Shown: one piece after another, positions 2,993-53,476 of the stretch
Numbering within the stretch: the stretch's first letter is position 1
How the letters are laid out: each line of letters starts with the position of its first letter
Source of the DNA: Chitinibacter bivalviorum
GTDB lineage: Bacteria > Pseudomonadota > Gammaproteobacteria > Burkholderiales > Chitinibacteraceae
Direction: 5' to 3'
NCBI RefSeq assembly: GCF_013403565.1
Contig: NZ_CP058627.1
Coordinates: 1,922,001 to 1,986,000 of the forward strand
Length of the DNA: 64,000 nt
Notes under the pieces: generated by a model
The model's database searches: none
Told to the model about the DNA's origin: nothing
The model's input: only the letters and a program-made list of their open reading frames with translations
Made by a program: the position numbers and the translations under genes

Positions 2993-4218
2993 TGCGCCAC
3001 CTTGGGCTCAATCGGCGTGTCCGCGACGCCAGCCATCATATAGCGATTGCGCCCACCCGCTTTGGCCTGATACATCGCACCATCGGCTTGCTGTAACCAG
3101 CTCGCTGGCGAGCGTAAATCAGGCTCCCACGGCGCGATGCCGATACTGCCACCCAGCGGCAGCAGTTGATCCTTATACCAAACTGGCTCGGCTAATTTGG
3201 CCAAGATTTTGTCTGCGACCAATGTGATTTCGTCTTTCGAGCTAATCCCGCGAAACATAATGACGAACTCATCGCCGCCGAGGCGGCACACCAGATCGCC
3301 TTTGCGCACCAAAGCCCTAAAACGACGCGCAATTTCAATCAACAAAGCATCGCCAGCAGCATGACCATATTCGTCATTCACATTTTTGAAAAAGTCCAAA
3401 TCGATTAGAAACACCACGGTATTGATCGCTTCTTCATGTGGATTTTTTAAGATTTGGCGTAATTTATTGATCAGATCAAGCCGATTTGATAGGCCAGTGA
3501 GTGGGTCTTCAAAAGCCAATTTGCGCATTTTCTGATTGCGCTCGGCCATTTTCTCGGCGTTTTCCGATACCCGTTGGCGCATCGTCCACAGGCGCATCTG
3601 ATGGCTTTGCAAACGCTGCACAACGTTAATCCCAACAACAGTAACAAGAGCCAACACCAAGAGTGCAGCGGCACACGGCAAAAATGGCCAGACACTCGCC
3701 GTCAAAATACCCGCGATCACGGCCGCATTAGCGAGCGCAGCCAAGGCATAACGGGGCGTGGGCAATCCGGCCAGCAGCAATAACACCGGTGGCAACACAA
3801 AAGGCAAGATCAGCGCTGAAGGCGGCACAGCGTCTTTCATCTGCCAAGCCCAAAGCCCAGACAGCGCAATCGGCAGCACAACGGCCAGCGTCACCAGCCG
3901 CAGCTCCCATTCCAACTGCTCCTGATGCAAAGCCCAAGCCGCGCGAAAAAAAGCAGCGGAAGAAATCAGCGGCAATACCCACACCTGCCACCAAGACCAG
4001 TCCAGCTGCAAAAGCAATAATGGCAGCAATAAAGACAAGCATGCCAAGCTAAGCGCCAAATGTTCGCGCTGTAGCCGGCGCTCGCGTTTGACGCGTGCAG
4101 AGTGCCGCTGCAAGCCTTCGTCATTGGGGCGCAAAGCAGCAAGCTCGGTGGGTGACTCCAGCGTGGGAGACAATAAATCAGGCCTCATAAAACGGGTATC
4201 CCGCAAGATTGATGGCAA
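2989..4218 (-). CDS. Membrane-bound GGDEF diguanylate cyclase
   Basis: 409 residues. An N-terminal cytoplasmic segment is followed by five or six hydrophobic helices (about 53-200), a short linker and a GGDEF domain (about 235-395). The catalytic motif GGDEF is intact at 314-318. An RxxD product-inhibition site (RKGD, 305-308) lies exactly five residues before it. It should therefore make cyclic di-GMP from two GTP and be feedback-inhibited. No recognisable extracellular sensor domain; the membrane region itself may sense. The gene overlaps the ABC ATPase gene by 4 bases, an odd pairing that suggests co-transcription rather than shared function. An alternative start is ATG 4188. Confidence 0.9.
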   Translation of the reverse strand: MPSILRDTRFMRPDLLSPTLESPTELAALRPNDEGLQRHSARVKRERRLQREHLALSLACLSLLLPLLLLQLDWSWWQVWVLPLISSAAFFRAAWALHQEQLEWELRLVTLAVVLPIALSGLWAWQMKDAVPPSALILPFVLPPVLLLLAGLPTPRYALAALANAAVIAGILTASVWPFLPCAAALLVLALVTVVGINVVQRLQSHQMRLWTMRQRVSENAEKMAERNQKMRKLAFEDPLTGLSNRLDLINKLRQILKNPHEEAINTVVFLIDLDFFKNVNDEYGHAAGDALLIEIARRFRALVRKGDLVCRLGGDEFVIMFRGISSKDEITLVADKILAKLAEPVWYKDQLLPLGGSIGIAPWEPDLRSPASWLQQADGAMYQAKAGGRNRYMMAGVADTPIEPKVAQ

Positions 4219-5550: not shown

Positions 5551-6588
5551 ATGACCGAAATCAAACGGCTCTATTCAATCGGCGTCTTCAGCTTCGCGCT
5601 GCTGTTGGTTGCTTGCGGTGGAGGGAGTGGTGGCAACAACAGTAGCACTAGCGGCAACAGCTCGCAGCCTCCACAGCAAAGCAGTAACAATCTGTGTACC
5701 GAGATTCCCCCCAGTACCTCAAACGCCGTCATCCTCAAAGCCGCTGCGGGGCCAAGTGCCAATGGTTTTCAAAGTACTGGCGATAACATTGGCGACCTCA
5801 ATCAATACACCAATGCCATCCGCGCCGAATTGAGCCTACCCGCACTCACCGTAGAGCCCGCATTAAACCTCTCCGCCGGGCAACACAGCAGCTATATGCA
5901 GCTCAATGAAATCCTCAGCCATGACGAAATACCGGGCAATATCGGCTTTACCGCTGCAACACCCTTTGAACGTATCCAACAGGTCTATGATCCGCCACTC
6001 AGTTTTAGTGGCGAAATCGCCAGCGCGATGAGCGGCTCGGGCACCTCAGCCAGTCGCGCCATCGCCGATTTATTTGACGCCCCACTGCACCGAGTCATCA
6101 TGTTGAGTGAATATCTTGCCATGGGCAGTGGTTATGCAGTCAGTAGCAAAGGCGTAGCCTACAGCACACAGGATTTTGCCAACTACCGCGCGGGAATCAG
6201 CGATTTTGAGCTTGTGGCCTACCCCTACGCAGGGGCAACACAAATTCGCAGCTATTGGCAGGATAGTGAAACGCCCGACCCACTCGGCGGCACGCCTTAT
6301 AGCCACAAAAACGTCGGTTACCCGATTAGCTTGCAAGGCAATTTTGGCAGCGAGCTCACGCTCACCCAATTGAAAGTCTATGCCAATTGCAGCAGTGAAA
6401 TTGCAGTCACTGCGCGAGATCATAGCAGCAGCCCGCAGATTGTCGAAACCAGCAATGTCATCATTGCCGTACCGCATACACCGCTGGCGCCACGCACAAA
6501 CTATACAGTTTGGGCCACCGGGCAATATTTAAGCGCCAGCAAAGAGCTGCGCACATTTGATTTACGCTGGTCATTTACGACGCAGTAA
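5551..6588 (+). CDS. CAP/SCP-domain lipoprotein
   Basis: 345 residues from ATG 5551 (an upstream in-frame ATG at 5536 is possible). The signal peptide ends in a lipobox LLVAC with Cys22, followed by a Gly/Ser/Asn linker typical of a surface-tethered lipoprotein. Residues about 85-215 look like a CAP (cysteine-rich secretory, antigen 5, PR-1) domain: LNQYTNAIRAELSLPAL, then AGQHSSYM and SHDE. The C-terminal ~110 residues resemble a beta-sandwich. CAP proteins in bacteria are secreted, and their roles are mostly undefined. It stands alone and is followed by a strong terminator. Confidence 0.75.
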   Translation: MTEIKRLYSIGVFSFALLLVACGGGSGGNNSSTSGNSSQPPQQSSNNLCTEIPPSTSNAVILKAAAGPSANGFQSTGDNIGDLNQYTNAIRAELSLPALTVEPALNLSAGQHSSYMQLNEILSHDEIPGNIGFTAATPFERIQQVYDPPLSFSGEIASAMSGSGTSASRAIADLFDAPLHRVIMLSEYLAMGSGYAVSSKGVAYSTQDFANYRAGISDFELVAYPYAGATQIRSYWQDSETPDPLGGTPYSHKNVGYPISLQGNFGSELTLTQLKVYANCSSEIAVTARDHSSSPQIVETSNVIIAVPHTPLAPRTNYTVWATGQYLSASKELRTFDLRWSFTTQ

Positions 6589-24506: not shown

Positions 24507-25373
24507 TTATTGCTGCGCTTGGCGGCAACCGGCTTTGAGCCAAGCGAGCCATTGATCCATGCCCTCGCCCGTTTTGGTCGAAAGGCAAATGACTTCGAGA
24601 TTTGGTCGCACTTGCCGCGCCATCGCAATCGCCGCCTCAACGTCAAAATCCAGATACGGCAGCAAATCGGTTTTGCTCAAAATCATCAAATCGGCCGCGC
24701 GGAACATATCGGGGTATTTCAGCGGTTTGTCTTCGCCCTCGGTCACCGACAATATCGCCACTTTATGCGCTTCGCCCAGATCAAACGCCGCTGGGCAAAC
24801 CAAGTTGCCGACGTTTTCGATCAGCAGCAAGCTGTTGTCCGCCAGCGCCTGTTCACCCGCCAAGGTATCGATCGCGCCCGCCACCATATGCGCATCGAGG
24901 TGACAGCCTTTACCGGTATTGATTTGCACCGCCGGTGCGCCCGTCGCGCGGATGCGGTCGGCGTCGTTCGCGGTTTGCTGATCGCCCTCGATCACCGCCA
25001 CTGCGGGGTGCTTCTGCAATTGTTGCGATTGTTTCCATTGCTTGATTGTTTCAACCAGCAAAGTCGTTTTGCCCGAGCCGGGGCTGGATACCAGATTGAG
25101 CGCGAAGATGCCTTGCGCCGCCAGACGCGCGCGATTTTGCGCGGCCAGCGCGTCGTTGCTGGCCAAAATATCGTGCTCAAGCCGGATGGTACGCTCGGGA
25201 TCAACGTCAGGTGCGTGCGCAGCGCCCAGCGGGCCAGTGGGCGCGTGTTCGGCGTGACCCGGCAGGCGATAGCTGTGCCCCACCCCAGCCGTAGCAGCGG
25301 CGCGTTTTCGCCGTACCGGAGCAATGCCATTGATCGTCGTTTCGCCATGACCGCAACCGCAGGTGGTACACAT
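24507..25373 (-). CDS. hypB: Nickel-inserting GTPase HypB
   Basis: 288 residues from ATG 25373, giving the N-terminal metal motif MCTTCGCG (Cys2, Cys5, Cys7), the high-affinity nickel site. The GTPase domain shows the P-loop [24 protein letters not shown], the metal-linked [20 protein letters not shown] and the LSKTDLL base-specificity motif. No His-rich storage stretch, only one HGE and a few His, so nickel storage is unlikely. With HypA it delivers Ni2+ to the large subunit. Its normal upstream neighbour hypA is now 8 kb away because of the inserted element. Confidence 0.96.
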
Positions 25374-25533
25374 TTTCAAGCTCCTTGCATCCACGCTGGA
25401 TGCCTTAACTTATACGCACAATAAACCTGTAAATTCTAAGCGGGTGTTACTCGGCTAGCTTTCAATTAGCCATTAATACCACGAGGTATATCTTCAAAGA
25501 TCAATCTAAAAAATGCCTTCAATCATATACCCA
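25374..25533. other. Remaining hypA-hypB spacer upstream of hypB
   Basis: Chromosomal side of the left element junction. It contains a good ribosome-binding site for hypB (AAGGAG, minus strand) and the miniature element copy 3. Any promoter that now drives hypBFCDE independently of hypA should lie here or inside the element; I see no convincing -35/-10 pair. Confidence 0.5.
25486..25532. repeat. 47-bp miniature inverted-terminus element, copy 3
   Basis: GGTATAT at the left, ATATACCC at the right. It ends one base before the 9-bp direct repeat that marks the left edge of the integrated element. Confidence 0.55.
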
Positions 25534-25582: not shown

Positions 25583-25700
25583 TGGCTCTGGGGTTTGAAT
25601 TCCCGTGTAGCGAAAACCGAGGTGAGGAGCGAGACAAACTGTTTTATCGTTTGGCTCGCGACGAGGTGAGGGCTGCGCGGAGCGCTTTTCGCCCGGGTCG
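25583..25700 (+). repeat. Degenerate copy of the long module B repeat in the left element end
   Basis: Shares CTCTGGGGtTtgAATtCCC, gGAGcGagACAAAC and TATCGTTTGGCTCGCGAC with the modules at 51907-52127 and 52832-53049. Its presence accounts for the roughly 92 bases by which the left terminus is longer than the right. Confidence 0.6.
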
Positions 25701-25773
25701 CCTTCTCTTGCTTACTTCTCTTGGCGAGCCATATATATAATAAGTACATAAAATTTACTACTTGGTGGCAACA

Positions 25774-27459
25774 ATGGCAATTGCTTATTCATATATTCGT
25801 TTTTCTGACTCACGACAAATTCAAGGAGCTTCACTTGAACGCCAGACTGAGCAAGCACGCCGATGGTGCGCTGAAAATGGAGTTGAGCTATGCCCTGATA
25901 GTTTCCGTGACTTGGGGGTTTCAGGGTTTGATGCCTCCAATCTTCGTGCGAGTTTAGGGGCATTCTTGGATGCGGTTTTTGATGGAAAAATCAAATCTGG
26001 AAGTTATCTATTAATTGAAAACTTTGATCGTTTAAGTAGAGCTGAACCTTTAGAAGCGTTGGAATTACTGAAAAAAATTATTGATGCAGGCATTCTTGTT
26101 GTAACTTTAATTGATAGACGCATATTCACGCGGGAGTCATTAAGCGAAATTACTCCATTGCTTGTTAGTCTTATAAGTATGGCTCGGGCACATGAAGAAA
26201 GTGTGGTTAAGTCTAAGCGCATCCGTGATGCGTGGAATCGGCGTCGAGATGCAGCTTTAATTTCAGATAGACCAGAACCTATTTTTGGCAAAACACCTGC
26301 ATGGGTAACTAAAGTTGATACAAAATTTGAGCTTGTTCCAGAATTTGCTGAAACGATATGCAAAATTTTTGAGCATTCCGCGGCGGGATTGGGATCACTT
26401 GCAATATCACACAAGGCCAATGAAGAGAATTGGGCATACCCTAAAAGACCTTTTACTGATGCTCAGATTTACAGAATTTTGACTAGTCGATCTGTTCTTG
26501 GGGAGTTTGCCCCAAGACTATCTGATAAAACTTCAAAATCCAAAAAGGTTAGCTCTGGACTAGTTATCCATAATTACTACCCATCCGTAATTTCAGAGGC
26601 ACTATTCAATCAATCACGGCATGCTGTGGAAATTCGTAGTACTGGCCGCCGTCGAGATGCTGGGTTTTACAATGTGCTTGCACACCTACTGCAGTGCTCA
26701 TGTGGTGCTTCAATTACACGAAGGAAAGGATCTCATCGTCAGACGTTGAAAAACTATGCATCATATGAATGTAGAAGTCGGCGTCAGAAGATCACGACCT
26801 GTAAGTCTTTGAACCATGCGTATATTGAGCAAAAGCTGGTCTGGCTACTGCTTTCGATTAACATTCAGCAGATGAATCTACCTGAAATCAAAAGAATTGA
26901 AGCTGAGATTCGAGAACATGAAGGTGCGTTACTTACAGGAAATGATTCTCTAAAAATACTTGAAGCGGTATTTTTAGAGACCACGAATGCTGGAATAAAA
27001 CCTCCAAATGCACTAGTTGCTCAATTGGCTGCGCTAGAAAAAAAGGTTCTTGATGCGGAAGAAAAGCTACTCACATTAAAAATGGAAGTCCAAAAACTCC
27101 AGAGCGTTAAAGGTAGTATTTTAACAAGCGGTGAAAGCTATTCAGACGTAAGAAATAGAACCCATGAGTATTTAGCGAAATTGTACGATCCTACGGAAGG
27201 TGATTATAGGGCAAAACTTAATTTAGAATTTCGTACGCTGATTGACAAAATTATCATTAATGGGAATGAAAAAACGGCTCAAGTAATCTTAAAACGTAAC
27301 CCAAACATGAAGAAACAAATAATCCTAAATCTAGAAAAAGGCAGGCATCGCCAGCCTATACTTAATTATCAGCTAGATGGCACAATTAAATTACAATATT
27401 CAGTAATGACGTTTGATGATCCCGTCTATGGAGTTCGCTCTTTAATGGATATTGTTTGA
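25774..27459 (+). CDS. Large serine recombinase (integrase of the element)
   Basis: 561 residues from ATG 25774 (a TTG at 25762 is in frame). The resolvase-type catalytic domain (about 1-150) has Ser11 in YIRFSDSRQIQGASLERQ and the conserved ENFDRLSR. A Recombinase domain follows (about 165-275), then a zinc ribbon (about 295-345: LQCSCGASITRRKG, YECRSRR, CKSLNH) and a coiled-coil segment (about 370-460), the full layout of large serine integrases. It should cut and exchange attachment sites through a phosphoserine link without host factors. It is the first gene at the left end and points inward. Codon use is AT-rich. Confidence 0.92.
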   Translation: MAIAYSYIRFSDSRQIQGASLERQTEQARRWCAENGVELCPDSFRDLGVSGFDASNLRASLGAFLDAVFDGKIKSGSYLLIENFDRLSRAEPLEALELLKKIIDAGILVVTLIDRRIFTRESLSEITPLLVSLISMARAHEESVVKSKRIRDAWNRRRDAALISDRPEPIFGKTPAWVTKVDTKFELVPEFAETICKIFEHSAAGLGSLAISHKANEENWAYPKRPFTDAQIYRILTSRSVLGEFAPRLSDKTSKSKKVSSGLVIHNYYPSVISEALFNQSRHAVEIRSTGRRRDAGFYNVLAHLLQCSCGASITRRKGSHRQTLKNYASYECRSRRQKITTCKSLNHAYIEQKLVWLLLSINIQQMNLPEIKRIEAEIREHEGALLTGNDSLKILEAVFLETTNAGIKPPNALVAQLAALEKKVLDAEEKLLTLKMEVQKLQSVKGSILTSGESYSDVRNRTHEYLAKLYDPTEGDYRAKLNLEFRTLIDKIIINGNEKTAQVILKRNPNMKKQIILNLEKGRHRQPILNYQLDGTIKLQYSVMTFDDPVYGVRSLMDIV

Positions 27460-27468
27460 CGCAACGAA

Positions 27469-27493
27469 CATCCCCCCTGTTTGAGGGGGGATG
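27469..27493 (+). terminator. Hairpin after the recombinase gene
   Basis: CATCCCCCC/GGGGGGATG stem of 9 bp (27469-27477 with 27485-27493) with a 7-base loop, 10 bases after the stop. No strong T-run, so the terminator role is probable but not certain. Confidence 0.65.
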
Positions 27494-28341
27494 CCGATAG
27501 ATAAAATCTATAAAAATCAAAATCAAACGATCACATAGATATGCTAAGAGAATCTACTGTCCTAATATTGTATAGCCAAGATTTTTATTAATTCATAATG
27601 CTTGAGCAAATTTATTTTTAGATAACCATATATTATGAATTCTCACCCGAGCCTAATCAATTCTATAGTATATTATACCCCCGCAGTGCTCATGCCTAAT
27701 GCCACCAACGTTGGCAACCTGTAAGTACAGTCTAAGTGTTTGAAGTGGCACACGGCAAACACGGGGTTTTACGAGAAAAAGTTTTCGAGTAAAACCAATA
27801 CAAAACCGCATCCAAGAAAAAAATAAGGGGTGAGGTCTATTGAATTAAGGTGAGAAATAAATAAGGCTTTAACTTAATATATATTTTTTCTATAAAAAAA
27901 GCCGTGTAATCAGTGTAAGTGATATTTAACGAGGGTTGCACCCGTGTAAGTGCTGTATCTAACAGTGTGAAAACTGTGTGATGGGCTGATAGCTTAAACA
28001 ACCATCTCTTCATTAAAAAAGACATGCTTTCGTTGGTTAAATGCCCGTACATAAAATATCAGTTACATTATTAACCTTGGTTGCCAATCGCTAGTCAGTC
28101 CGTTGATTTGTAGAATAGTATATTACATCATGTTGCATGATTAAATACATTAAATGAAACCATTGAGAACATTAGATTTAATTTATGTGCCAATAACTAC
28201 GCCTGTTAGTGCTGCAAAAATTGGAATCCACCAGCGCCTATCGGCACGATGCGACATAGCTTGGGTTTACAACTTAATTGCAATTTCAATAAGTGCAGTT
28301 ACTTGTTCAGATGCTCGGGGATAGATCTTACAACTTAGTTG
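27494..28341. other. Gene-free AT-rich stretch inside the element, with hairpins
   Basis: About 850 bases without a convincing gene. It holds a hairpin (GGTTTTAC/GTAAAACC arms, 27764-27796) and short repeated words (GTGTAAGTG twice at 27910-27955; AACAGTG/AAACTGTGTG). Two weak open frames (27837-28052 minus, 28154-28324 plus) lack ribosome-binding sites and family resemblance. It could contain a replication origin for the element's helicase, or small RNAs, but nothing proves either. Confidence 0.4.
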
Positions 28342-29334
28342 CTATGAGCCGTTATCATCAATTGCATCTAAAATAACCTTAGCAATGCCGTTATCCTTTA
28401 TGGCATCTACATAATGTTTAACCTTTGCCATTTCAGCTGCATTAGTTATTTTTATACTTTCGTGTAATCCAAGTGATTGAATCCGATCGCTAGCCCGACC
28501 TTCACTTAATTTCATAAGTAGTGCACACAAAGCGTAAGATAGGTATATATTTTCTTTAAACCGCTCGTTTCCGACAGTAAATAGGAATGCAGCATGCTCA
28601 AATGCATCACAATTATCATGCTCCATTGCACGTATTAAATAGGTTATTGATTTTTCGGTATCCGCTTTATCTTTATATGCATTGTAATGAATATGTGAAA
28701 TGTCATGCCCACAACCACAACCATATAATACACTTAAATAATATTCTGCTTCTCCATCTTGGGCTGATGTAGCTCGCAGTAACCACTCCTCTGCTAAATC
28801 AAAATCAATGCAGGAAAATATTTCAAGTAAAAATATTATACCGAGCGTAAGTTGGGCATGAGGATTGCCTTCTTTAGCAGAGTCTCCCACCCAATGAGCA
28901 AGAATATCATTAGCTGGCCTTTCGTTATAATATTTAGTAAAATGTTCACGGCTAATATCTAATTCCACAGCAGCTGGAATATGTCCCCATAATGCGGCAT
29001 TCAAAAAATACCTAGAAGCTAAACCACGATCATAATGTTCATATGCTTTGTTATTGAAAATTAGTCCCAAGTAGTGATTTGACAAACAAATTAAATTTGT
29101 ATCATTGGACAACCTAGAGCGTTTGAAGTGATACACAGCGTCGTTTAGATAATTATCTATATAGTATACTTCGCCTAGGATCCCATCCGCTTTTAAATTT
29201 CCGCGAGTAGTCAGCTTGTTTAGTTTTTTAATTGCAGTTATTTTATCTCCATTTTCAAGAAGACAAATGCAATTCTCTATATCATCAGAGCTATATCTAC
29301 GACTAAAAAATTTTGAATAAATGTAACTCAACAT
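28342..29334 (-). CDS. Sel1/TPR-like repeat protein, element cargo
   Basis: 330 residues made mostly of short helical repeats of Sel1/TPR type, e.g. GNLKADGILGEVYY, EGNPHAQLTLGIIFL, AQDGEAEYYLSVLYG and CDAFEHAAFLFTVG at about 36-residue spacing. No signal peptide or catalytic motif is seen, so it is probably a cytoplasmic protein-protein interaction scaffold. Strongly AT-rich, with use of rare codons relative to flanking chromosomal genes. Sel1-like proteins are frequent in defence and effector cargo of mobile elements, but no such role can be shown here. Confidence 0.65.
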   Translation of the reverse strand: MLSYIYSKFFSRRYSSDDIENCICLLENGDKITAIKKLNKLTTRGNLKADGILGEVYYIDNYLNDAVYHFKRSRLSNDTNLICLSNHYLGLIFNNKAYEHYDRGLASRYFLNAALWGHIPAAVELDISREHFTKYYNERPANDILAHWVGDSAKEGNPHAQLTLGIIFLLEIFSCIDFDLAEEWLLRATSAQDGEAEYYLSVLYGCGCGHDISHIHYNAYKDKADTEKSITYLIRAMEHDNCDAFEHAAFLFTVGNERFKENIYLSYALCALLMKLSEGRASDRIQSLGLHESIKITNAAEMAKVKHYVDAIKDNGIAKVILDAIDDNGS

Positions 29335-29545
29335 TTAAATCTAATCCAAGTAATTTATTTTCTTAAAAAATTTAAAATATAAAAATAATTATTATTTCAG
29401 GTCGCCTCTTGACTTCTATTGTCTTAAAGTGGGCTAAATGGCGCTACTTTGAATAGTGCTAATTCTAATATATCTAATGCATGAGTGATAGGCTATAAGT
29501 TACAACTACAGCAGCACTATTCTGGCAATCGAGTAGTTTCAAGTC

Positions 29546-29980
29546 TTAGTTAAGTAATTCAATATTGGCAAGTTTGAAACCTCTAGGAGCTTTACCAGAT
29601 ATACGTTTTTGATAAGGAGATATAAAGAGTGTTGCCAATTTTTCACCGTTAGGGTGTGATATTTCATAAGCATCTACAGGATGGGGGGATGCATCAGAGC
29701 CAAATGAACCAACGCGTTCATAAACAATCTTGGTTCCGTCAGGTGTACGAAGGCAACCTAGATATGCAGTACTACCAAAAATTGTCTTGCAAGGAATCGG
29801 ATTAGAAGGTGTTACGCCAAATTCGCCTTGACCGTTTGGCAGCTCATCAGCATCAACCCCATCCTCGCACATAAGGCTCATTGCTTCGAATAGCTCTTTT
29901 TGCTGCTGAAATACGGGGTCTTCATTTAGTGCATCCCATGCTGTTTTTGGTTTCTTACGGAAGATATCGAACAAACCCAT
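29546..29980 (-). CDS. Unrecognised 144-residue cytoplasmic protein, element cargo
   Basis: 144 residues starting MGLFDIFRKKPKTAWDALNED. The N-terminus resembles the short amphipathic leader seen in several small DUF proteins, and the rest is mixed alpha/beta (GSTAYLGCLRTPDGTKIVYERVG, ISHPNGEKLATLFISPYQ). No signal sequence, membrane helix or known catalytic motif. I do not recognise the family. Clear ribosome-binding site (AAAGGA) upstream on the minus strand. The 211 bases between it and the Sel1-like gene hold nothing I can name. Confidence 0.6.
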   Translation of the reverse strand: MGLFDIFRKKPKTAWDALNEDPVFQQQKELFEAMSLMCEDGVDADELPNGQGEFGVTPSNPIPCKTIFGSTAYLGCLRTPDGTKIVYERVGSFGSDASPHPVDAYEISHPNGEKLATLFISPYQKRISGKAPRGFKLANIELLN

Positions 29981-30298
29981 ACAACATCCTTTAGTCAGTT
30001 AATTTCAAATATACTTACACAGGTTTATCTTTTTATTTGTCATGCCTGACCTACTCTCTAGGGTCAAGCTAGATAAAAACAGCAAGCATGGATGATTAGT
30101 TTACACCGATGTGTTAAATGCTAACACCAACCTTCGCTTACCAGTGGCGAAATTGGTAAGAGAGCTAAGTACATTTCATTTACTTAGCTCAAACTTGAAC
30201 AAGAATTCAAAATAAGTTTCGCGATATCAAATCGCGTTGAGTCTGATCCAATAATTTTTGCTTAAAAATAGCTAGCATGGATGTGCGAATTTCTAGAA
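29981..30298. other. Intergenic stretch with an inverted repeat
   Basis: 318 bases between two minus-strand element genes. It contains a 9-bp inverted repeat GAGCTAAGT/ACTTAGCTC (30162-30170 with 30182-30190) without a T-run; it may be a terminator for the helicase gene or an operator. No gene seen. Confidence 0.4.
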
Positions 30299-31708
30299 TT
30301 AAAATGGAATTGCGCATGGATCCAGCTGCATCAAATTGACACGCCTTCGCCTCCTGTCGCAATAATTACTTCCATTGCTCCATGCATCACCTTTGATGAT
30401 TCGGTTGGTGCTTTCGGTAAATTCAGCGCCACTTTCTTTAAAATATGCCGCAATTCTTGACCAAAACTCTTTCTGCGAGACTGGGCTATTTCCGTTTGCT
30501 TTGCACCAACCGATGTAAGATCTATCAAATTTCTGATTAGCTTCATAGTGCCCTTCATCGTTCAAGAATTTTTCATCGCACTTGTAGAAGCCTTGCTTCC
30601 ATTCATACCTCATAGGTGATCGCATACTAACAATTAACCCTGTGTCTTTAATCCATGATCTGACACTGTCTGTGCTAGTTTTTGCTTCCTCAATAGCATC
30701 ATGAACTGCTTTAGGTACGATGAATTGCCCTCTCTTGATTAACTGAATCAGGCCTTCAATTGCCCAATTCAATACTACATTCAGCTCGTTTGTAATAATA
30801 TTTTTTGCTAACAATGGATCTGGTTTTTCAATTTTGGCATTGAAAGGGATGATCTGTTGCCTTCTCCAAAATCCATTCGACTGATCCTTCACCTTTGGGA
30901 AATGGTTCGCGCAAACAATGAATTTTCGATGCGATGCATACGAAACTGGATCTTTATACAAAATCTTTACCTCTACAACACCACCTGATATGAGCATTTT
31001 CAATTTTTGTTCATTAATGCCACTTTTTGGAACTTCGTCCGAGAAGCACAAACTTGCACCGATGACATTTGGTAAATGCTGCGGATCCAATCTATCCAAT
31101 TCGAGTGCACATGTTTTTTGGTGTAACTGGCAAACAATATCGAGTAGTGTTGACTTGCCATTTTTTCCTGATCCTAACCAAAGCTGCATAACTTGATAAT
31201 TGAGCTTGCTTTGTAAGGAATAGCCGATGTACTCCTGCACCAACTGCCTGATCTCAGTATCAGGTAAAATCTGCTCGATGAACTTCTGAAATTTACTACC
31301 TTCAAAGTTACGCTTCTCATCGAAGTCGCAATTAATCGCATAAGTCATTGCACGGTTTTTGTCTGGTGGCATTAGGGATTTAACGCCCATTGCATCGCCT
31401 TCGCAGCCAACAGCAATATATTGAGTCTCAGTTGGGATGCATGCGTCCGTTATTTGAGATATCGGTAGCTTTGGTAGGAATGCCCTTAATAGGGCTGTAC
31501 ATGCTCGTGCTTTATTTGCCGTAGCTTTATCTCGAAAATTTTCAATTAAGAAGTTCAATGCTGCATTTTCAAGATTGAGTTGAGTTTGAGCCTGATAATG
31601 GCTTCCTGTCCATTTATATACGACTCCACCTGTAGTGTAATACTCGCTCTCCTTTAGCGTTTTAGCAAACTGCAAGTCAATTGATTCTCTGGTAACTTTA
31701 TTTTTCAT
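30299..31708 (-). CDS. D5/P4-type SF3 helicase (phage/plasmid primase-helicase C-terminal type)
   Basis: 469 residues. A D5_N-like region (about 60-165) precedes an SF3 helicase AAA+ core with Walker A GSGKNGKST (179-187), Walker B-like SLCFSDEVPK, and the downstream FIVCANHFPKVKDQSNGFWRR box typical of P4/poxvirus-D5 helicases. No N-terminal primase (AEP/Toprim) domain is present, so priming must come from another protein. It would drive replication of the excised element. Good ribosome-binding site AAGGAG before the ATG. The upstream 216-residue gene is probably its partner in the same transcript. Confidence 0.87.
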   Translation of the reverse strand: MKNKVTRESIDLQFAKTLKESEYYTTGGVVYKWTGSHYQAQTQLNLENAALNFLIENFRDKATANKARACTALLRAFLPKLPISQITDACIPTETQYIAVGCEGDAMGVKSLMPPDKNRAMTYAINCDFDEKRNFEGSKFQKFIEQILPDTEIRQLVQEYIGYSLQSKLNYQVMQLWLGSGKNGKSTLLDIVCQLHQKTCALELDRLDPQHLPNVIGASLCFSDEVPKSGINEQKLKMLISGGVVEVKILYKDPVSYASHRKFIVCANHFPKVKDQSNGFWRRQQIIPFNAKIEKPDPLLAKNIITNELNVVLNWAIEGLIQLIKRGQFIVPKAVHDAIEEAKTSTDSVRSWIKDTGLIVSMRSPMRYEWKQGFYKCDEKFLNDEGHYEANQKFDRSYIGWCKANGNSPVSQKEFWSRIAAYFKESGAEFTESTNRIIKGDAWSNGSNYCDRRRRRVNLMQLDPCAIPF

Positions 31709-31799
31709 AATATATATCTCCTTGTGGTTTAATTATTGTTCGATATTCATTTAAATTCTTAATGGTTGCATCTTATCTAATTACTGCATCCATTCTTAC

Positions 31800-32450
31800 T
31801 TATTGCTCGTGTTTCATAAATCTTGTAAAAAACAATTTTGGCGGCAAGATCAATTGCTCTCTAAACGATTTGTCCGCCGTTGCTGTGCGAGTTTTAACTA
31901 ATTCGGATTTTTGTTCTTTGAGCAAATGGAAGCCGGGCAATTTACCGATTCTATCAAGTATGAATTGCATTTTGCTCTTGCTGTGCTGGTGAGACTTAAT
32001 CGTATTGACTAATAGTCCATAGGTTTTTTCATTCAATTGCCAGCTATAGCTGTATTTATTATCAGATGACCTATAATATTTTCTAAGTTCATACCTGCCG
32101 AACGCATTTAGTCTTTTAATTGGATATAGAAACTCCTCCTTCCATATACCAATTTCTTTGTTGCCACCACTAACCAATATTATCCATTTTGCTTTTGGCA
32201 TATTGGCGGTCTTAACGAATGCCAGCCATGTGCCAGCAATTCCTAATTTCTTATTTCTGCATTTTTGTACATGACTGGCACAGCAGCTAAATTTTTCATG
32301 CATCTTGATCATGAACGCATTAATTTTTTCTTCGTCTATTTCGCCCTCTATAAAATGTGAATAACCTCTTGATGCCTGTAGTTGAATTGCTTGCAAGAAT
32401 ACGGCTACTGATCTGAATATTTTTGGCTGATATGTGGTTTTTTGCTCCAT
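31800..32450 (-). CDS. Unrecognised 216-residue basic protein, likely replication partner
   Basis: 216 residues, Lys/Arg-rich, with no signal peptide. Cysteines cluster around CCASHVQKCRNKK (about 56-68). The segment IGIWKEEFLYPIKRLNAFGRYELRKYY and the basic C-terminus suggest nucleic-acid binding. No family recognised. It has a near-perfect ribosome-binding site (AAGGAGG) and lies 91 bases upstream of the SF3 helicase on the same strand, so a role in origin recognition or priming is a reasonable guess only. Confidence 0.6.
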   Translation of the reverse strand: MEQKTTYQPKIFRSVAVFLQAIQLQASRGYSHFIEGEIDEEKINAFMIKMHEKFSCCASHVQKCRNKKLGIAGTWLAFVKTANMPKAKWIILVSGGNKEIGIWKEEFLYPIKRLNAFGRYELRKYYRSSDNKYSYSWQLNEKTYGLLVNTIKSHQHSKSKMQFILDRIGKLPGFHLLKEQKSELVKTRTATADKSFREQLILPPKLFFTRFMKHEQ

Positions 32451-32635
32451 GTGACTCCTCCTTATTTGATGAAAATTAGTATATGTGTGATTTCACCAAA
32501 TAATCGAACTCACGCATAAAAATAATGCGAAATTTCACAACTGATAAGAACACCATAATAATGTTACATAGAATCAGGAGATTGAATTTCATTGTCTATA
32601 CTATTTGCCACTAAATGAAAGCTAACATCGAAGTA

Positions 32636-32660
32636 AATCCTGATTTGCCAAATCGGGATT
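32636..32660 (+). repeat. 11-bp-stem hairpin at the 5' edge of the structured RNA region
   Basis: AATCCTGATTT and AAATCGGGATT pair with a 3-base loop (one T:G). It could be a terminator of convergent transcription or an operator upstream of the RNA. Confidence 0.6.
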
Positions 32661-32669
32661 AAGTAATTG

Positions 32670-33505
32670 ACTTAGCCAGTCAATGAAAATTCTCTTGCCG
32701 AAGCGTAGTGCATCTAATAGTGCTCGCTACGCTACGACCGGCGCTGGACGGCTGAAATGCTGTCTTTCGACCGAATACACATGAATGTTGGGCGACGAGG
32801 AAACGGCTGCTCTGGTGACAGATGCAGACCTGATAAGGTATGAAACTCCGTGAAGTCGGAGCTGTGGGGCCTTGGGAAACTGGGCAACGCATGCGGCACG
32901 TGTGGGCTGATGAGCTGCGAGTAATCGTAGAGGGTTCGGAGGTGAAAACTGGAAGAATCGGCACTTCGAGAAATTGAAGGTCTCTGGATAGCTTAAGCAT
33001 GAAGTTGCACCCTTCGAGGGTGCATTGCCGAGACTATGATTGCGTTTAAGGAAATGGTGTTGAAGTCAACAGATGAGTAAGGGAGCCGTTCGTAACATTG
33101 GGCCTCTGAAATACGCAGAGTGTGTGAGTCACACTAATTTGTTGATGGAGCCAGACGCTAAATAGTCGCATGTAGTCTTTATCTAACTCGGGAGCCTCCT
33201 AGCTTGCGCTGGACACTGGTTGGCACCAGTGAATGCAAGAAGGAGGGGGAGAATTTTTGAGTACCGTTCATTGTGATATGAATATTGTTTGTGCAACTTT
33301 CACAAGTGCAAACAAGATACCTGCGACGCAGGATTACAACTTGGCCGTTGTAGTGGGAAAGAAAATGGCAAGAGAGAATCGATGTTCTGTTGTACGGAAA
33401 AATTGCTTGGCGGTAGTTTTTCTTAATTTGATAGCGTGGTAGCTATCAAATAGTTTGCAAGTAATGGCATGGCAACTTTAAAGCCCGAGGAATTCCTCGG
33501 GCTTT
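32670..33505 (+). ncRNA. Candidate large structured RNA (~830 nt), class unknown
   Basis: No credible protein frame, but a dense run of local hairpins on the plus strand. Three stems are closed by GNRA loops: CTGCGA-GTAA-TCGTAG (32915-32930), CTTCGA-GAAA-TTGAAG (32964-32979) and GGT-GAAA-ACT (32941-32950). Others are CTCCG/CGGAG near 32846-32861, TGCACCC/GGGTGCA (33006-33024), a three-part nested stem at 33195-33246 (CCTCC/GGAGG, CTTGC/GCAAG, CACTGG/CCAGTG), CCTGCG/CGCAGG near 33320, TTTGATAGC/GCTATCAAA (33427-33450), and a strong final palindrome (33480-33505) like a terminator. A TTGACT box (32667-32672) may be the -35. Size and location at a mobile-element end recall giant ornate RNAs (GOLLD/ROOL type); an ORF-less group II intron is the main alternative, but I see no domain V. 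Exact ends are uncertain. Confidence 0.6.
33480..33505 (+). terminator. Palindromic terminator at the 3' end of the RNA region
   Basis: AAAGCCCGAGG/CCTCGGGCTTT, 11-bp stem with AATT loop. Symmetric, so it could act in both directions. Confidence 0.85.
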
Positions 33506-33619
33506 ATTCAATTGTTGCGGAACATTTTGATGTACTTATTGACTCAATGGAGAAGCAAGAGAAGTAAGTCCCCGTCGCGGACTGCGACTGAAAACACCGT
33601 GCCGTAGGCACTAGAAATC

Positions 33620-33647: not shown

Positions 33648-33989
33648 CTAAGCCACAGTAATTTCCAACACCTGCATTTCCTCACCCGCCGTCACCAGCA
33701 AATCAAATCCGCCACATTGCGGGCAGGGAAAACCGATTTTTTCCAACGCAACTTCTTGCTGACAATCATTGCAACGCGCTTGCCCGGGCGTTTGTTCGAC
33801 TTCAAATATTGCATCGGCAAGCAAGGTCTGGCGTGCAGCCAGCTCACAGCAAAATTGCAAGGTATCGGCGTCGACGTGCGCCAGCGCACCAATGCCAAGG
33901 CGCACCCGGCCGACACGCTGGGCGCGTGCTTTGAGCGCGGCCGATTCAACAATGCGGATCACATTTTCAGCAAGGCTCAGTTCATGCAT
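33648..33989 (-). CDS. hypA: Hydrogenase nickel-delivery protein HypA
   Basis: 113 residues. The N-terminal MHE provides the nickel site (His2), and the zinc site has CxxC pairs Cys73/Cys76 and Cys89/Cys92. HypA loads nickel together with HypB into the hydrogenase large subunit. Start ATG 33989 is preceded by GAGGA. The stop TAG at 33650-33648 lies inside the 9-bp direct repeat that bounds the integrative element, so the coding sequence is intact but the natural link to hypB is broken. Divergent from the structural operon. Confidence 0.96.
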   Translation of the reverse strand: MHELSLAENVIRIVESAALKARAQRVGRVRLGIGALAHVDADTLQFCCELAARQTLLADAIFEVEQTPGQARCNDCQQEVALEKIGFPCPQCGGFDLLVTAGEEMQVLEITVA

Positions 33990-51538: not shown

Positions 51539-51842
51539 GCACGCAAAATGATGAAGCCGCCAGTCTTGGCGGTTTTTATTTGCCTGTAATTTGCCATTCA
51601 CCACGGATTGGCGGCTATGCGCCGCGGCACTTACTTTCTTTGCTTCGCCTAAAGAAAGTAAGCAAAGAAAGGCGACCCCACATCTGCGTCGGCTGCGCCG
51701 ATGCCCTCGACTGCGGACGGTTCGAGGCGGCGGCGGGTCTTAACAAAACAGGCCCCGCCGAAACCCCGCCCCGCCCGTTCCTCGCTCGGCGCAGATATAG
51801 GGGAATTGGTGCAGCCCGACGATGGCGGCATATACCCACCAC
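51508..51842 (+). repeat. Long module A, copy 1
   Basis: About 335 bp, strongly similar to 52135-52576: shared REP-2 head, GAAGCCGCCAGTCTTGGCGG hairpin with T-run, the GGCGGCTATGCGCCGCGGCA block, a CTTTCTTTGC/GCAAAGAAAG palindrome and a GC-rich tail. No coding frame is conserved between the two copies, so it is a noncoding repeat. Confidence 0.8.
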
Positions 51843-51890
51843 GGTATTGATCTAAAATTAATTATTTGATTGATCTTGCTTGATATACCC
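51843..51890. repeat. 48-bp miniature inverted-terminus element, copy 6
   Basis: GGTATTGATCTAAA at the left, GATATACCC at the right; immediately follows module A copy 1. Confidence 0.5.
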
Positions 51891-51906
51891 TATGCATATT
51901 TAGTCC

Positions 51907-52127
51907 GCGCTCTGTGGTCTGGGGCTTAAATCCCCTGTCGCCCATCGCCGAGGGAGTGGAGCGTGACAAATGGCTTTATCGTTTGGCTCGCGACCGACTG
52001 AGGGAAGCCCGGAGGGCCGCAGGCGGGGGGCTCCTTTGGGGTGTTGGGGGCTTTGGAGAAGCAAAGCCCCCAACCTGTCTGCGCGGCGGAACGCGCACCA
52101 AAAACTCGCGGCGTAGCCGCATAAAAC
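51907..52127 (+). repeat. Long module B, copy 1
   Basis: About 220 bp nearly identical to 52832-53049: GGTCTGGGGCTTAAATCCCC, CGCCGAGGGAGTGGAG, TCGTTTGGCTC, GTTGGGGGCTTTGGAGAAGC, ending GCGTAGCCGCATAAAA. A decayed copy lies at 25583-25700. Noncoding. Confidence 0.8.
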
Positions 52128-52134
52128 CTAGCAC

Positions 52135-52165
52135 GTAGGGTGTAATAAGCGAAGCGCATTACACC
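52135..52165 (+). repeat. REP-2 palindrome, copy 2
   Basis: Same 31-bp sequence as copy 1; head of module A copy 2. Confidence 0.75.
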
Positions 52166-52576
52166 GTCCCCGAAATGATGAAGCCGCCAGTCTTGGCGGT
52201 TTTTATTTACCCGCAATTTTCCATCCACCACGGATTGGCGGCTATGCGCCGCGGCACTTACTTTCTTTGCTTCGCCTAAAGAAAGTAAGCAAAGAAAGGC
52301 GACCCCACATCTGCGTCGGCTACGCCGATGCTAGCCCTAGGCCACGGCCTGCGCTAAGGCAGCAAGCTGCCAAGCTCCGTCACGCCTCGACTGCGGACGG
52401 ATCGAGGCGGCGGCGGGGCTTAACAAAACAGGCCCCGCCGAAACCCCGCCCCGCCCGTTTACCCCAAGGGCACAGCCTTCGCTAAGGCAACAAGTTGCCA
52501 AGCTACGGCATGCCTCGCTCGGCGCAGCTGTAGAGGAATTGGTGCAGCCCAACCATTTTTGACATATACCCATCAC
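52135..52576 (+). repeat. Long module A, copy 2, with two extra ~50-bp sub-repeats
   Basis: Matches copy 1 but carries two additional blocks (about 52331-52384 and 52460-52511) related to each other by GCTAAGGCarCAAGyTGCCAA. These sub-repeats are absent from copy 1 and show that the module grows by insertion or duplication. Confidence 0.75.
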
Positions 52577-52624
52577 GGTGTTGCTCTAAAGGCATTTTAT
52601 GAATTGGTTTTGGTGGGCATACCC
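52577..52624. repeat. 48-bp miniature inverted-terminus element, copy 7
   Basis: GGTGTTGCTCTAAA at the left resembles copy 6 (GGTATTGATCTAAA); right end GCATACCC. Like copy 6 it directly follows module A. Confidence 0.45.
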
Positions 52625-52703
52625 CCATCGCCAATTAGAACGAATTGCCCATGGAGATGCGCCGTTTGAAAAAGTTACGGCGAGATTTTAAGCCGCCTAG
52701 CTC

Positions 52704-52780
52704 GTAGGATGGGTGGAGGTCGCAGACCGATACCCATCGTGCAATCGGTGATGGGTATCGCTACGCTCAACCCATCCTAC
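52704..52780. repeat. REP pair in inverted orientation (RAYT family), second locus
   Basis: GTAGGATGGGTGGAGG...GATACCCATC (52704-52739) faces GATGGGTATCGCTACGC...CCCATCCTAC (52749-52780). Same family as the REPs flanking the RAYT gene 32 kb away, implying the transposase acts in trans. Confidence 0.82.
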
Positions 52781-52782
52781 AT

Positions 52783-52815
52783 GGTATTTCTGAATTGGCT
52801 TTGGCGAATATACCC
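52783..52815. repeat. Truncated 33-bp miniature element
   Basis: GGTATTTCTGAATTGG... ending ATATACCC; its interior matches the right part of copy 7 (TGAATTGGyTTTGG). Confidence 0.4.
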
Positions 52816-52831
52816 GATATCCATCTTGTAC

Positions 52832-53049
52832 GCGCTCGTTGGTCTGGGGCTTAAATCCCCTGTCACCCATCGCCGAGGGAGTGGAGTGAGACAAACAGCT
52901 TTTCGTTTGGCTCACGACCGACTAAGGGTAGCCCGGAGGGCCGCAGGCGGGGGGCTCCTTTGGGATGTTGGGGGCTTTGGAGAAGCAAAGCCCCCAACCT
53001 GCTTGCGCGGCGGAACGCGCACCAAAACTCGCGGCGTAGCCGCATAAAA
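52832..53049 (+). repeat. Long module B, copy 2
   Basis: About 218 bp, near-identical to 51907-52127, ending GCGTAGCCGCATAAAA. Confidence 0.8.
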
Positions 53050-53476
53050 TCCAAGCTCGCGCAGCGAGTTTTGCGGCGCCTTGCCAATTGCCGGACGAAC
53101 GGGAATTCGCGGCGATCGGGCGCGCGGGGGTTGCAAGGGGCGGAGCAAGACCCGCTCCTTGCTCGTGCGGCCGGCGAAACGGCCGATTTACCGCCTGAGA
53201 TAGCAGGCTAATACCACGATGATCGATGGTGCAATGCGCTTCGCTTATTGCACCCTACTGTTCTGCCTGCGCAGCAGAGCACGCACCAAAAAGATTCGGC
53301 ACAACCGCATAAAACCGAAGGCTGATATCGGCTGCGCTTATCGCGACCCAGAATGCAGTAGCAGATTAAATATAATTAATCACTAATAATCAAAGCAATT
53401 TCTATACTAGCTGGAGGGCGAAAATATAAAGCCATCTGCTTTTCGCCTAGTTTTACATCAACAGAAGGAAGCCAAA
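53050..53476. other. End of the gene-free repeat field
   Basis: GC-rich to about 53340 with a fragment resembling the end of module B (ACGCACCAAAAAGATTCGGC...CCGCATAAAACC near 53281-53320), then AT-rich sequence that should hold the promoter of the Lys-rich protein gene. No gene seen. Confidence 0.5.
53228..53258 (-). repeat. REP-2 palindrome, copy 3, inverted
   Basis: Reverse complement reads GTAGGGTGCAATAAGCG...GCATTGCACC, the same family as 51508-51538 and 52135-52165 with compensating C/G changes in the stem. Confidence 0.75.

Follow-up and report, generated by a model that had tools for sequence, protein, structure and literature searches.

GOLLD and ROOL are ornate RNAs of mobile elements that phages and prophages carry, frequently close to tRNAs. 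In the part of the published account cited here (PMC12286853), one ROOL is 659 nucleotides (nt) long and many GOLLD RNAs exceed 800 nt, cryo-electron microscopy structures of both contain intermolecular kissing loops, no protein partner is known for ROOL, and the function of both is still undescribed. OLE RNA, prevalent in Gram-positive extremophiles according to the cited part of PMC9723947, is a large structured RNA that acts with Oap proteins as a ribonucleoprotein (RNP). Group II introns form RNPs in which a large RNA is joined by a maturase with a reverse transcriptase (RT)-like fold. In the eukaryotic spliceosome, Prp8, an RT-derived and catalytically dead protein, works with large RNA in splicing. 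Here we describe an RNA-protein pair found in a 64,000-nt stretch of Chitinibacter bivalviorum DNA (NCBI RefSeq assembly GCF_013403565.1, contig NZ_CP058627.1, positions 1,922,001 to 1,986,000, forward strand; this whole stretch is referred to as the window). Positions 32636 to 33505 of the window, on the plus strand, are a member of a family of structured RNAs of ~900 nt that gave no Rfam match. We are highly confident that this RNA and a neighboring gene, whose protein product has an RT-like predicted fold, constitute a two-part system, and the two may be a previously unrecognized RNA-based machine that moves DNA between cells.

A giant structured RNA encoded on the plus strand

A preliminary description, made from the letters of the window, had proposed that the right end of a mobile element encodes a giant structured noncoding RNA, with the plus strand as the sense strand. 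Homologues, covariation and strand-specific wobble pairs uphold this proposal. To measure covariation, we used 26 of 33 RNAs in 840 alignment columns, omitting seven that were near duplicates or divergent, and obtained the null distribution by re-placing substitutions on a FastTree tree in 30 null alignments, with a script that imitates R-scape and is not R-scape itself. The signal in this test, which the preliminary description had suggested, was strong: 32 column pairs reached an E value of ≤0.05, and 31 of them were Watson-Crick or G-U compatible in at least 70% of the sequences. The compatible significant pairs nest within one another, and two of them join positions ~675 nt apart. When the window sequence was excluded, all 24 significant pairs were compatible. 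As a coding control, the partner-gene DNA was put through the same test (21 sequences, 665 columns) and gave no significant pair; in the same 21 carriers, the RNA gave 24 significant pairs, all of them compatible.

Both strands of positions 32640 to 33515 fold more stably than shuffled sequence (plus strand, −309.6 kcal/mol, z = −5.4; minus strand, −241.1 kcal/mol, z = −5.15). Because both strands beat all 20 of their shuffles, the z score alone cannot choose between them. The assignment to the plus strand comes instead from the consensus helices of the homologues: those of at least three pairs contain 3,151 Watson-Crick, 585 G-U, 99 A-C and 338 other cells, and the excess of G-U over A-C is what RNA folding of the plus strand would produce. 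Twelve of the 29 listed consensus helices contain no significant pair of their own. No sense open reading frame (ORF) of at least 100 amino acids in the ORF list of the window overlaps the RNA stretch; an antisense ORF of 106 amino acids (32680 to 33000, minus strand) does.

The ends of the RNA are predicted. A family profile that includes the window sequence matches 32649 to 33559 with 410.9 bits (nhmmer), and the limits first proposed, 32636 and 33505, coincide with the RNA anatomy, the first of a pair of 5' hairpins occupying 32636 to 32660 and a palindrome, AAAGCCCGAGGAATTCCTCGGGCTTT, occupying 33480 to 33505. The window letters confirm the hairpins of the preliminary description, along with its loops of the GNRA type, its loop containing UUCG and its 3' palindrome. 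All positions below are on the plus strand.

The loop of 5' hairpin 1 reads UGCCA (32646 to 32650) and is a candidate for loop-loop contact, as judged from sequence and the loop test described below; hairpin 2 (32666 to 32684) has the loop UAGCC(A). These precede a covariation-supported core (32693 to 33371), whose closing helix, 32693-32699/33367-33371, is 90% paired and significant at columns 54/725 and 55/724; a significant pair in this helix corresponds to window positions 32694/33370, the window being gapped at two consensus positions on the 3' side. Just inside the core stands the conserved hairpin AGCGUAGUGCAUCUAAUAGUGCUCGCUACGCU (32702 to 32733), with three significant pairs and helix parts that are 99% and 98% paired. 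A long-range helix, 32796-32799/33187-33190 (CGAG/CUCG), spans 32796 to 33190, is 100% paired and has two significant pairs, including 32797/33189. Five significant pairs fall in a two-part hairpin at 32863 to 32891 (32863-32866/32888-32891 and 32869-32874/32880-32885). Covariation and consensus helices define a multi-branched domain at 32894 to 33030, built on helices 32894-32898/33026-33030 and 32899-32903/32997-33001. Within it lie the GNRA hairpin GGUGAAAACU (32941 to 32950; consensus helices) and the hairpin UUGCACCC-UUCGA-GGGUGCAU (33005 to 33025), which has the UUCG-containing loop and a consensus helix in which no pair is significant on its own. Three significant pairs mark the hairpin at 33080 to 33107, which in many homologues has a GCUUUGGAAUCUCG-like apical loop. 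We rejected this hairpin as a domain V by eye, as its AGC triad varies among homologues.

Toward the 3' end, a hairpin supported by the loop test and consensus helices (33214 to 33231; CACUGG-UUGGCA-CCAGUG) has a loop that complements the 5' loop UGCCA. It is followed by hairpins, identified from sequence and the loop test, with the loops UUGGCC (33341 to 33346; hairpin 33335 to 33352), UUGGCG (33407 to 33412; approximate outer limits 33396 to 33423) and GUGGUA (33436 to 33441; approximate outer limits 33426 to 33451). The palindrome at 33480 to 33505 is perfect and terminator-like in sequence, and was not called by a simple terminator scan.

Complementary loops at the two ends

Across the family, the 5' hairpins show the loop pattern NNCCA and the 3' hairpins UGGNN. 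The variants at the two ends tend to match (UGCCA/UGGCA, CGCCA/UGGCG, UACCA/UGGUA, AACCA/UGGUU, AGCCA/UGGCU and CACCA/UGGUG), with exceptions that include Variovorax and Paraphotobacterium. We compared 26 of the 33 RNAs, omitting four near duplicates and three without a detected 5' loop. Exact complements inside the same RNA scored 20.3 of 26; permuted sets averaged 10.8, and none of 20,000 permutations scored as high; the permutation ignores relatedness, and omission of the loop-less RNAs favors a positive outcome. For four-base complements, the score was 24.8, compared with 18.7 when the 5' sets were dealt to other RNAs. In many RNAs the 3' loops outnumber the 5' loops. These candidate contacts could equally be made within one molecule or between molecules.

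Relation to described RNA classes

At gathering scores, the only Rfam match in the window is a tRNA located elsewhere, 26 kb from the RNA. Below threshold, the best match was MicX (E value of 0.013; 23.2 bits against a cutoff of 75), which was clearest over the 3' palindrome; for the Azotobacter RNA the best sub-threshold E value was 0.12. Neither the window nor the Azotobacter RNA gave a GOLLD, ROOL, HEARO or OLE match at E values up to 10, and the same comparison, which the preliminary description had also suggested, found no group II or domain V family in either sequence at that limit. Twelve homologue loci gave two Rfam matches, both off the RNA. Identity with GOLLD or ROOL was thus excluded at the level of covariance-model matches. 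Phage records gave no blastn match with the window or Azotobacter RNA as the query, and none of 112 candidate viral contigs (108 + 4 loci chosen by two motifs) held the RNA or the partner protein; among viral contigs, 43 matches to a 14-base motif were all without the second motif, and 47 stretches found with protein patterns included no relative.

The likeness to GOLLD and ROOL first suggested stands only in part. The RNA shares with them an ornate fold, a similar size, a mobile-element location and loop-loop contacts, which are candidates here. It differs in having a conserved protein partner and no covariance-model match, and in sitting on plasmids and integrative elements rather than in phages, where it was not found. 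With OLE it shares the character of a large structured RNA that would act as an RNP, but it has no Rfam match. No paper on such an RNA was among the literature matches listed, a search whose coverage leaves out preprints and most subscription papers, and an earlier description is possible.

The RNA is carried by plasmids and integrative elements

Homologues were first reached through a 16-kb plasmid of Burkholderia glumae, in which 110 bases of the query matched weakly (blastn, 75.5%) within a gap free of annotation. This plasmid stretch as the query returned 11 plasmid records, and Escherichia coli and Azotobacter members returned 36 and 26, queries included. Plasmids carrying the RNA come from E. 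coli, Acinetobacter, Azotobacter, Halomonas, Thiothrix, Paraphotobacterium, Pseudoalteromonas (pMtBL), Paraburkholderia, Burkholderia, Pandoraea, Polaromonas, Acetobacteraceae and Deinococcus. Halomonas and the longest Azotobacter match aside, the matched stretches are unannotated. The family also sits on integrative elements. Genome searches added one Paraburkholderia and one Variovorax; in the host family, 3 of 43 genomes carry the RNA, the host genome included. Among 5,426 complete E. coli genomes searched with megablast, 21 had it, on 22 plasmid records (seven of ~3 kb and fifteen of 27 to 35 kb) and on no chromosome. With a profile built from 19 RNAs, the match to these loci extends over ~900 positions in the best cases and ~350 in the Acinetobacter and Deinococcus members.

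Several members have features of their own. The RNAs of Deinococcus sp. QL22 (L074), which falls outside the Pseudomonadota, and of Acinetobacter (L071, L076-L078) are very divergent, and their partner proteins are weakly similar, being longer in Acinetobacter. The N. hansenii RNA (L059, about 5668-6310 and 1-333) seems to contain a direct duplication of an internal stretch. Thiothrix unzii pTunz1 (L072) has two RNA copies and one clear partner gene, and in Pandoraea (L073:3307-5654) an IS256 element lies inside the 5' part of the RNA. A "hypothetical protein" annotated antisense across the Halomonas RNA (L068:1006-1830, minus strand) is probably spurious.

A conserved partner protein with an RT-like predicted fold

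Divergent from the RNA in the window lies a gene for a protein of 216 amino acids (31800 to 32450, minus strand). Despite ~20% identity, it is related to proteins found beside the RNA elsewhere, which have 216 to 270 amino acids in most family members. The two genes are divergent in 32 of the 33 loci that have both (related plasmids counted singly), pMtBL being the exception, and at the median 273 bases separate the RNA from the start of the open frame. The predicted fold resembles those of group II intron RTs, with what we read from the order of elements as a palm and a thumb, and DRT9 and retron RTs are also among the fold matches. Since the match begins at RT residue 100 to 156, the fingers seem to be missing. 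No YxDD motif occurs in the invariant or nearly invariant columns of partner alignments of 10 and 49 sequences. Comparison with 21 close group II RTs by hhalign was not significant, so the RT relation comes from the fold; searches of Pfam and NCBIfam gave only chance matches, and a search of PDB sequences gave none. The system resembles a group II intron RNP in that a large RNA is paired with a protein whose predicted fold is RT-like, but differs from it in having no domain V or D1-D4 match, no YxDD and seemingly no fingers, and in encoding the partner as a separate, mostly divergent gene.

Among 369 genomes of the class, profile searches with the protein located it in 8, at 11 places, three of them in the host genome; among 398 of the phylum it was located in 2, namely the host and one with an in-frame TAG. 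All 12 distinct places adjoin an RNA match; two are the copies of the window element, and one match (L083) is weak, at 60.8 bits. A third, different RNA-protein pair in the host genome (C1:2128282-2128923; L081, L213) has a tyrosine integrase nearby.

The two halves also occur apart. In the stretches examined, the RNA was without the protein on the seven ~3-kb E. coli plasmid records, N. hansenii pKHC110_1, K. europaeus pGE3, L063 (Polaromonas), where the protein spans the record start, and L218, which has a cut-off piece of the protein. The protein was without the RNA in L205, in L207, which was examined over 10.6 of 44.5 kb, and in L208 and L209, both of them partial matches. N. hansenii C110 has the RNA on pKHC110_1 and the protein on pKHC110_2 (L205), so the halves reside on two plasmids. 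The fifteen larger E. coli records carry both. In E. coli strain FHI_NMBU_11, a 3-kb plasmid occurs together with one of 34 kb; blastn found no match to the partner gene in the six remaining genomes that have a ~3-kb plasmid.

No match to four relaxase families, and coupling proteins in several carriers

According to PLSDB, the carriers are non-mobilizable in 11 of 11, 35 of 36 and 26 of 26 records and, with the protein as the query, in 28 of 29 (the sets overlap), compared with 119 of 649 in a control set of TrfA plasmids. Relaxase families PF03432, PF03389 and PF08751 were found in none of 24 records, a set that leaves out E. coli L067 and a search that did not extend to MOBV, MOBC and others, and PF07514 was found in none of 15. 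A TrwB-type coupling protein (PF10412) was present in 5 of the 24 records, and VirB4 in 4 of the 15. The coupling protein gene lies downstream of the RNA in L064, L066 and L073. On the 30-kb E. coli plasmid L067, 26 bp after the partner gene, a protein 29% identical to the Gluconacetobacter coupling protein of L066 is encoded, followed by a T2SSE/VirB11-type ATPase. An annotated type II/type IV secretion system (T2SS/T4SS) ATPase follows the partner gene in G. diazotrophicus, and a T2SSE ATPase stands beside it on genome contig L212.

The element in the C. bivalviorum genome

The RNA and its partner lie in an integrative element of 7,984 bp (25589 to 33572), delimited by blastn against a second copy in the host genome (within C1 2795000-2830000) that is 99.975% identical over 7,984 bp. 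The copies differ only at 25594 and 33570, near the ends. The element encodes a large serine recombinase, or integrase (25762 to 27459, plus strand; Pfam Resolvase and Recombinase, PHROG integrase), a primase/helicase-type replication protein (DUF5906; 30299 to 31708, minus strand; Pfam, PHROG) and further ORFs with no named domain. Besides the window element, 6 of 12 fetched genome stretches had recombinase domains (20 chosen proteins scanned), of the serine type in L220 and of the tyrosine type in L210, L213, L215, L216 and L221. The element splits hypB (24507 to 25394, named by eye) from hypA (33648 to 33989, Pfam) in a hydrogenase maturation cluster. Intergenic repeats at 51605 to 53235 are 74 to 91% similar to the edges of the second copy, and the element may target such repeats.

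Discussion

The best overall explanation, to which we assign a probability of roughly 0.45, is that the RNA-protein pair is a relaxase-independent RNP module for mobilization. We prefer a role in transfer because the spread over plasmids, tiny plasmids and integrative elements resembles that of mobilization units. Like origin of transfer (oriT)/relaxase (MOB) modules, the pair occurs on plasmids with transfer genes, on tiny plasmids and on integrative elements, and in several cases near coupling genes; it differs from them in having an RNA instead, with no relaxase among the four families searched. That the system is a DNA-transfer module of elements without a recognized relaxase is likewise a tentative conclusion, held at somewhat short of even odds. 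In such a module, the RNA and protein would bind each other as an RNP that would recognize or process the DNA of its own element and pass it to a coupling protein and T4SS, which would be encoded in cis on some larger plasmids or supplied by a helper for small plasmids and integrative elements. The boldest chemical option would be a strand transfer resembling reverse splicing. A group II intron-like RNP of this kind, in which a dead RT-fold protein and a giant RNA start conjugative transfer on their own DNA, would be an RNA-based relaxase; we regard this form of the proposal as rather unlikely, and as doubtful to the same degree the corollary that it would explain the spread of some "non-mobilizable" plasmids and integrative elements. 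Several observations weigh against a role in mobilization: 19 of the 24 carriers gave no coupling-protein match, only one of the seven E. coli genomes with an RNA-only plasmid has the partner gene by blastn, and an annotated VirB4 in G. diazotrophicus escaped the VirB4 search, so that blank family searches for relaxases are weak evidence.

The pair might instead stabilize its plasmid or element through segregation, incompatibility or copy number without transferring it, which we consider unlikely. A maintenance or copy-control RNP would suit 3- to 4-kb plasmids that carry the RNA and little else, and the pMtBL RNA (3100 to 3986) lies outside the OriR region (1918 to 2759, in the cited part of PMC10033558); in the cited part of PMC6848147, vectors with OriR only were lost and those with the whole plasmid were kept, although its authors attribute the stability to ParAB. 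The replication types of the carriers vary (RepL, TrfA, RepM and RepA), however, neighbors of the coupling-protein and VirB11 types would be unexpected, and copy control would be superfluous for integrated copies. A noncoding RNA with an RT-like protein also recalls defense or counter-defense systems of the retron/DRT type, as do DRT9 and retron RTs among the fold matches and MmeI and GmrSD restriction genes near two copies. We think such a role distinctly unlikely, as cDNA synthesis is not expected without a conserved YxDD and RNA-only plasmids occur without the protein; no effector gene common to the annotated loci was noticed, though no systematic test was made.

Two further possibilities concern the nature of the RNA itself. 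A giant ornate RNA that forms RNA-only multimers like those of GOLLD and ROOL, with the protein as cargo or accessory, would be compatible with a mobilization module, and the complementary, covarying 5' and 3' loops, with an excess of 3' loops in many RNAs, would allow intermolecular kissing. The same loops could pair inside one molecule, and the conserved partner, the lack of an Rfam match and the failure to find the RNA in phages make this improbable. Least probable, in our estimate, is a group II intron, highly derived yet still able to splice or retrohome, with its ORF relocated outside the RNA. The RNA size and the RT/maturase-like partner fold fit an intron of this sort, but two members gave no group II or domain V match even at the permissive limit used, the partner gene lies outside the RNA and mostly on the opposite strand, the RNA sits between annotated genes in the plasmids read, and YxDD is not conserved.

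Few bacterial RNAs of such size and complexity are known. If the role of the pair differs from the mobilization that we favor, an RT-like protein with a giant RNA would still represent a new class of RNP, one with a formal parallel in the Prp8-RNA core of the spliceosome. If the role in transfer is true, the pair would supply a mechanism to some of the plasmids and islands that have no recognized relaxase, and a recent review, in the part cited here, anticipates unknown mobilization mechanisms among such elements (PMC11389934). The RNA has a protein partner and a recurrent neighborhood, and its occurrence on pMtBL and on 3-kb plasmids of E. coli makes the system testable in laboratory strains.
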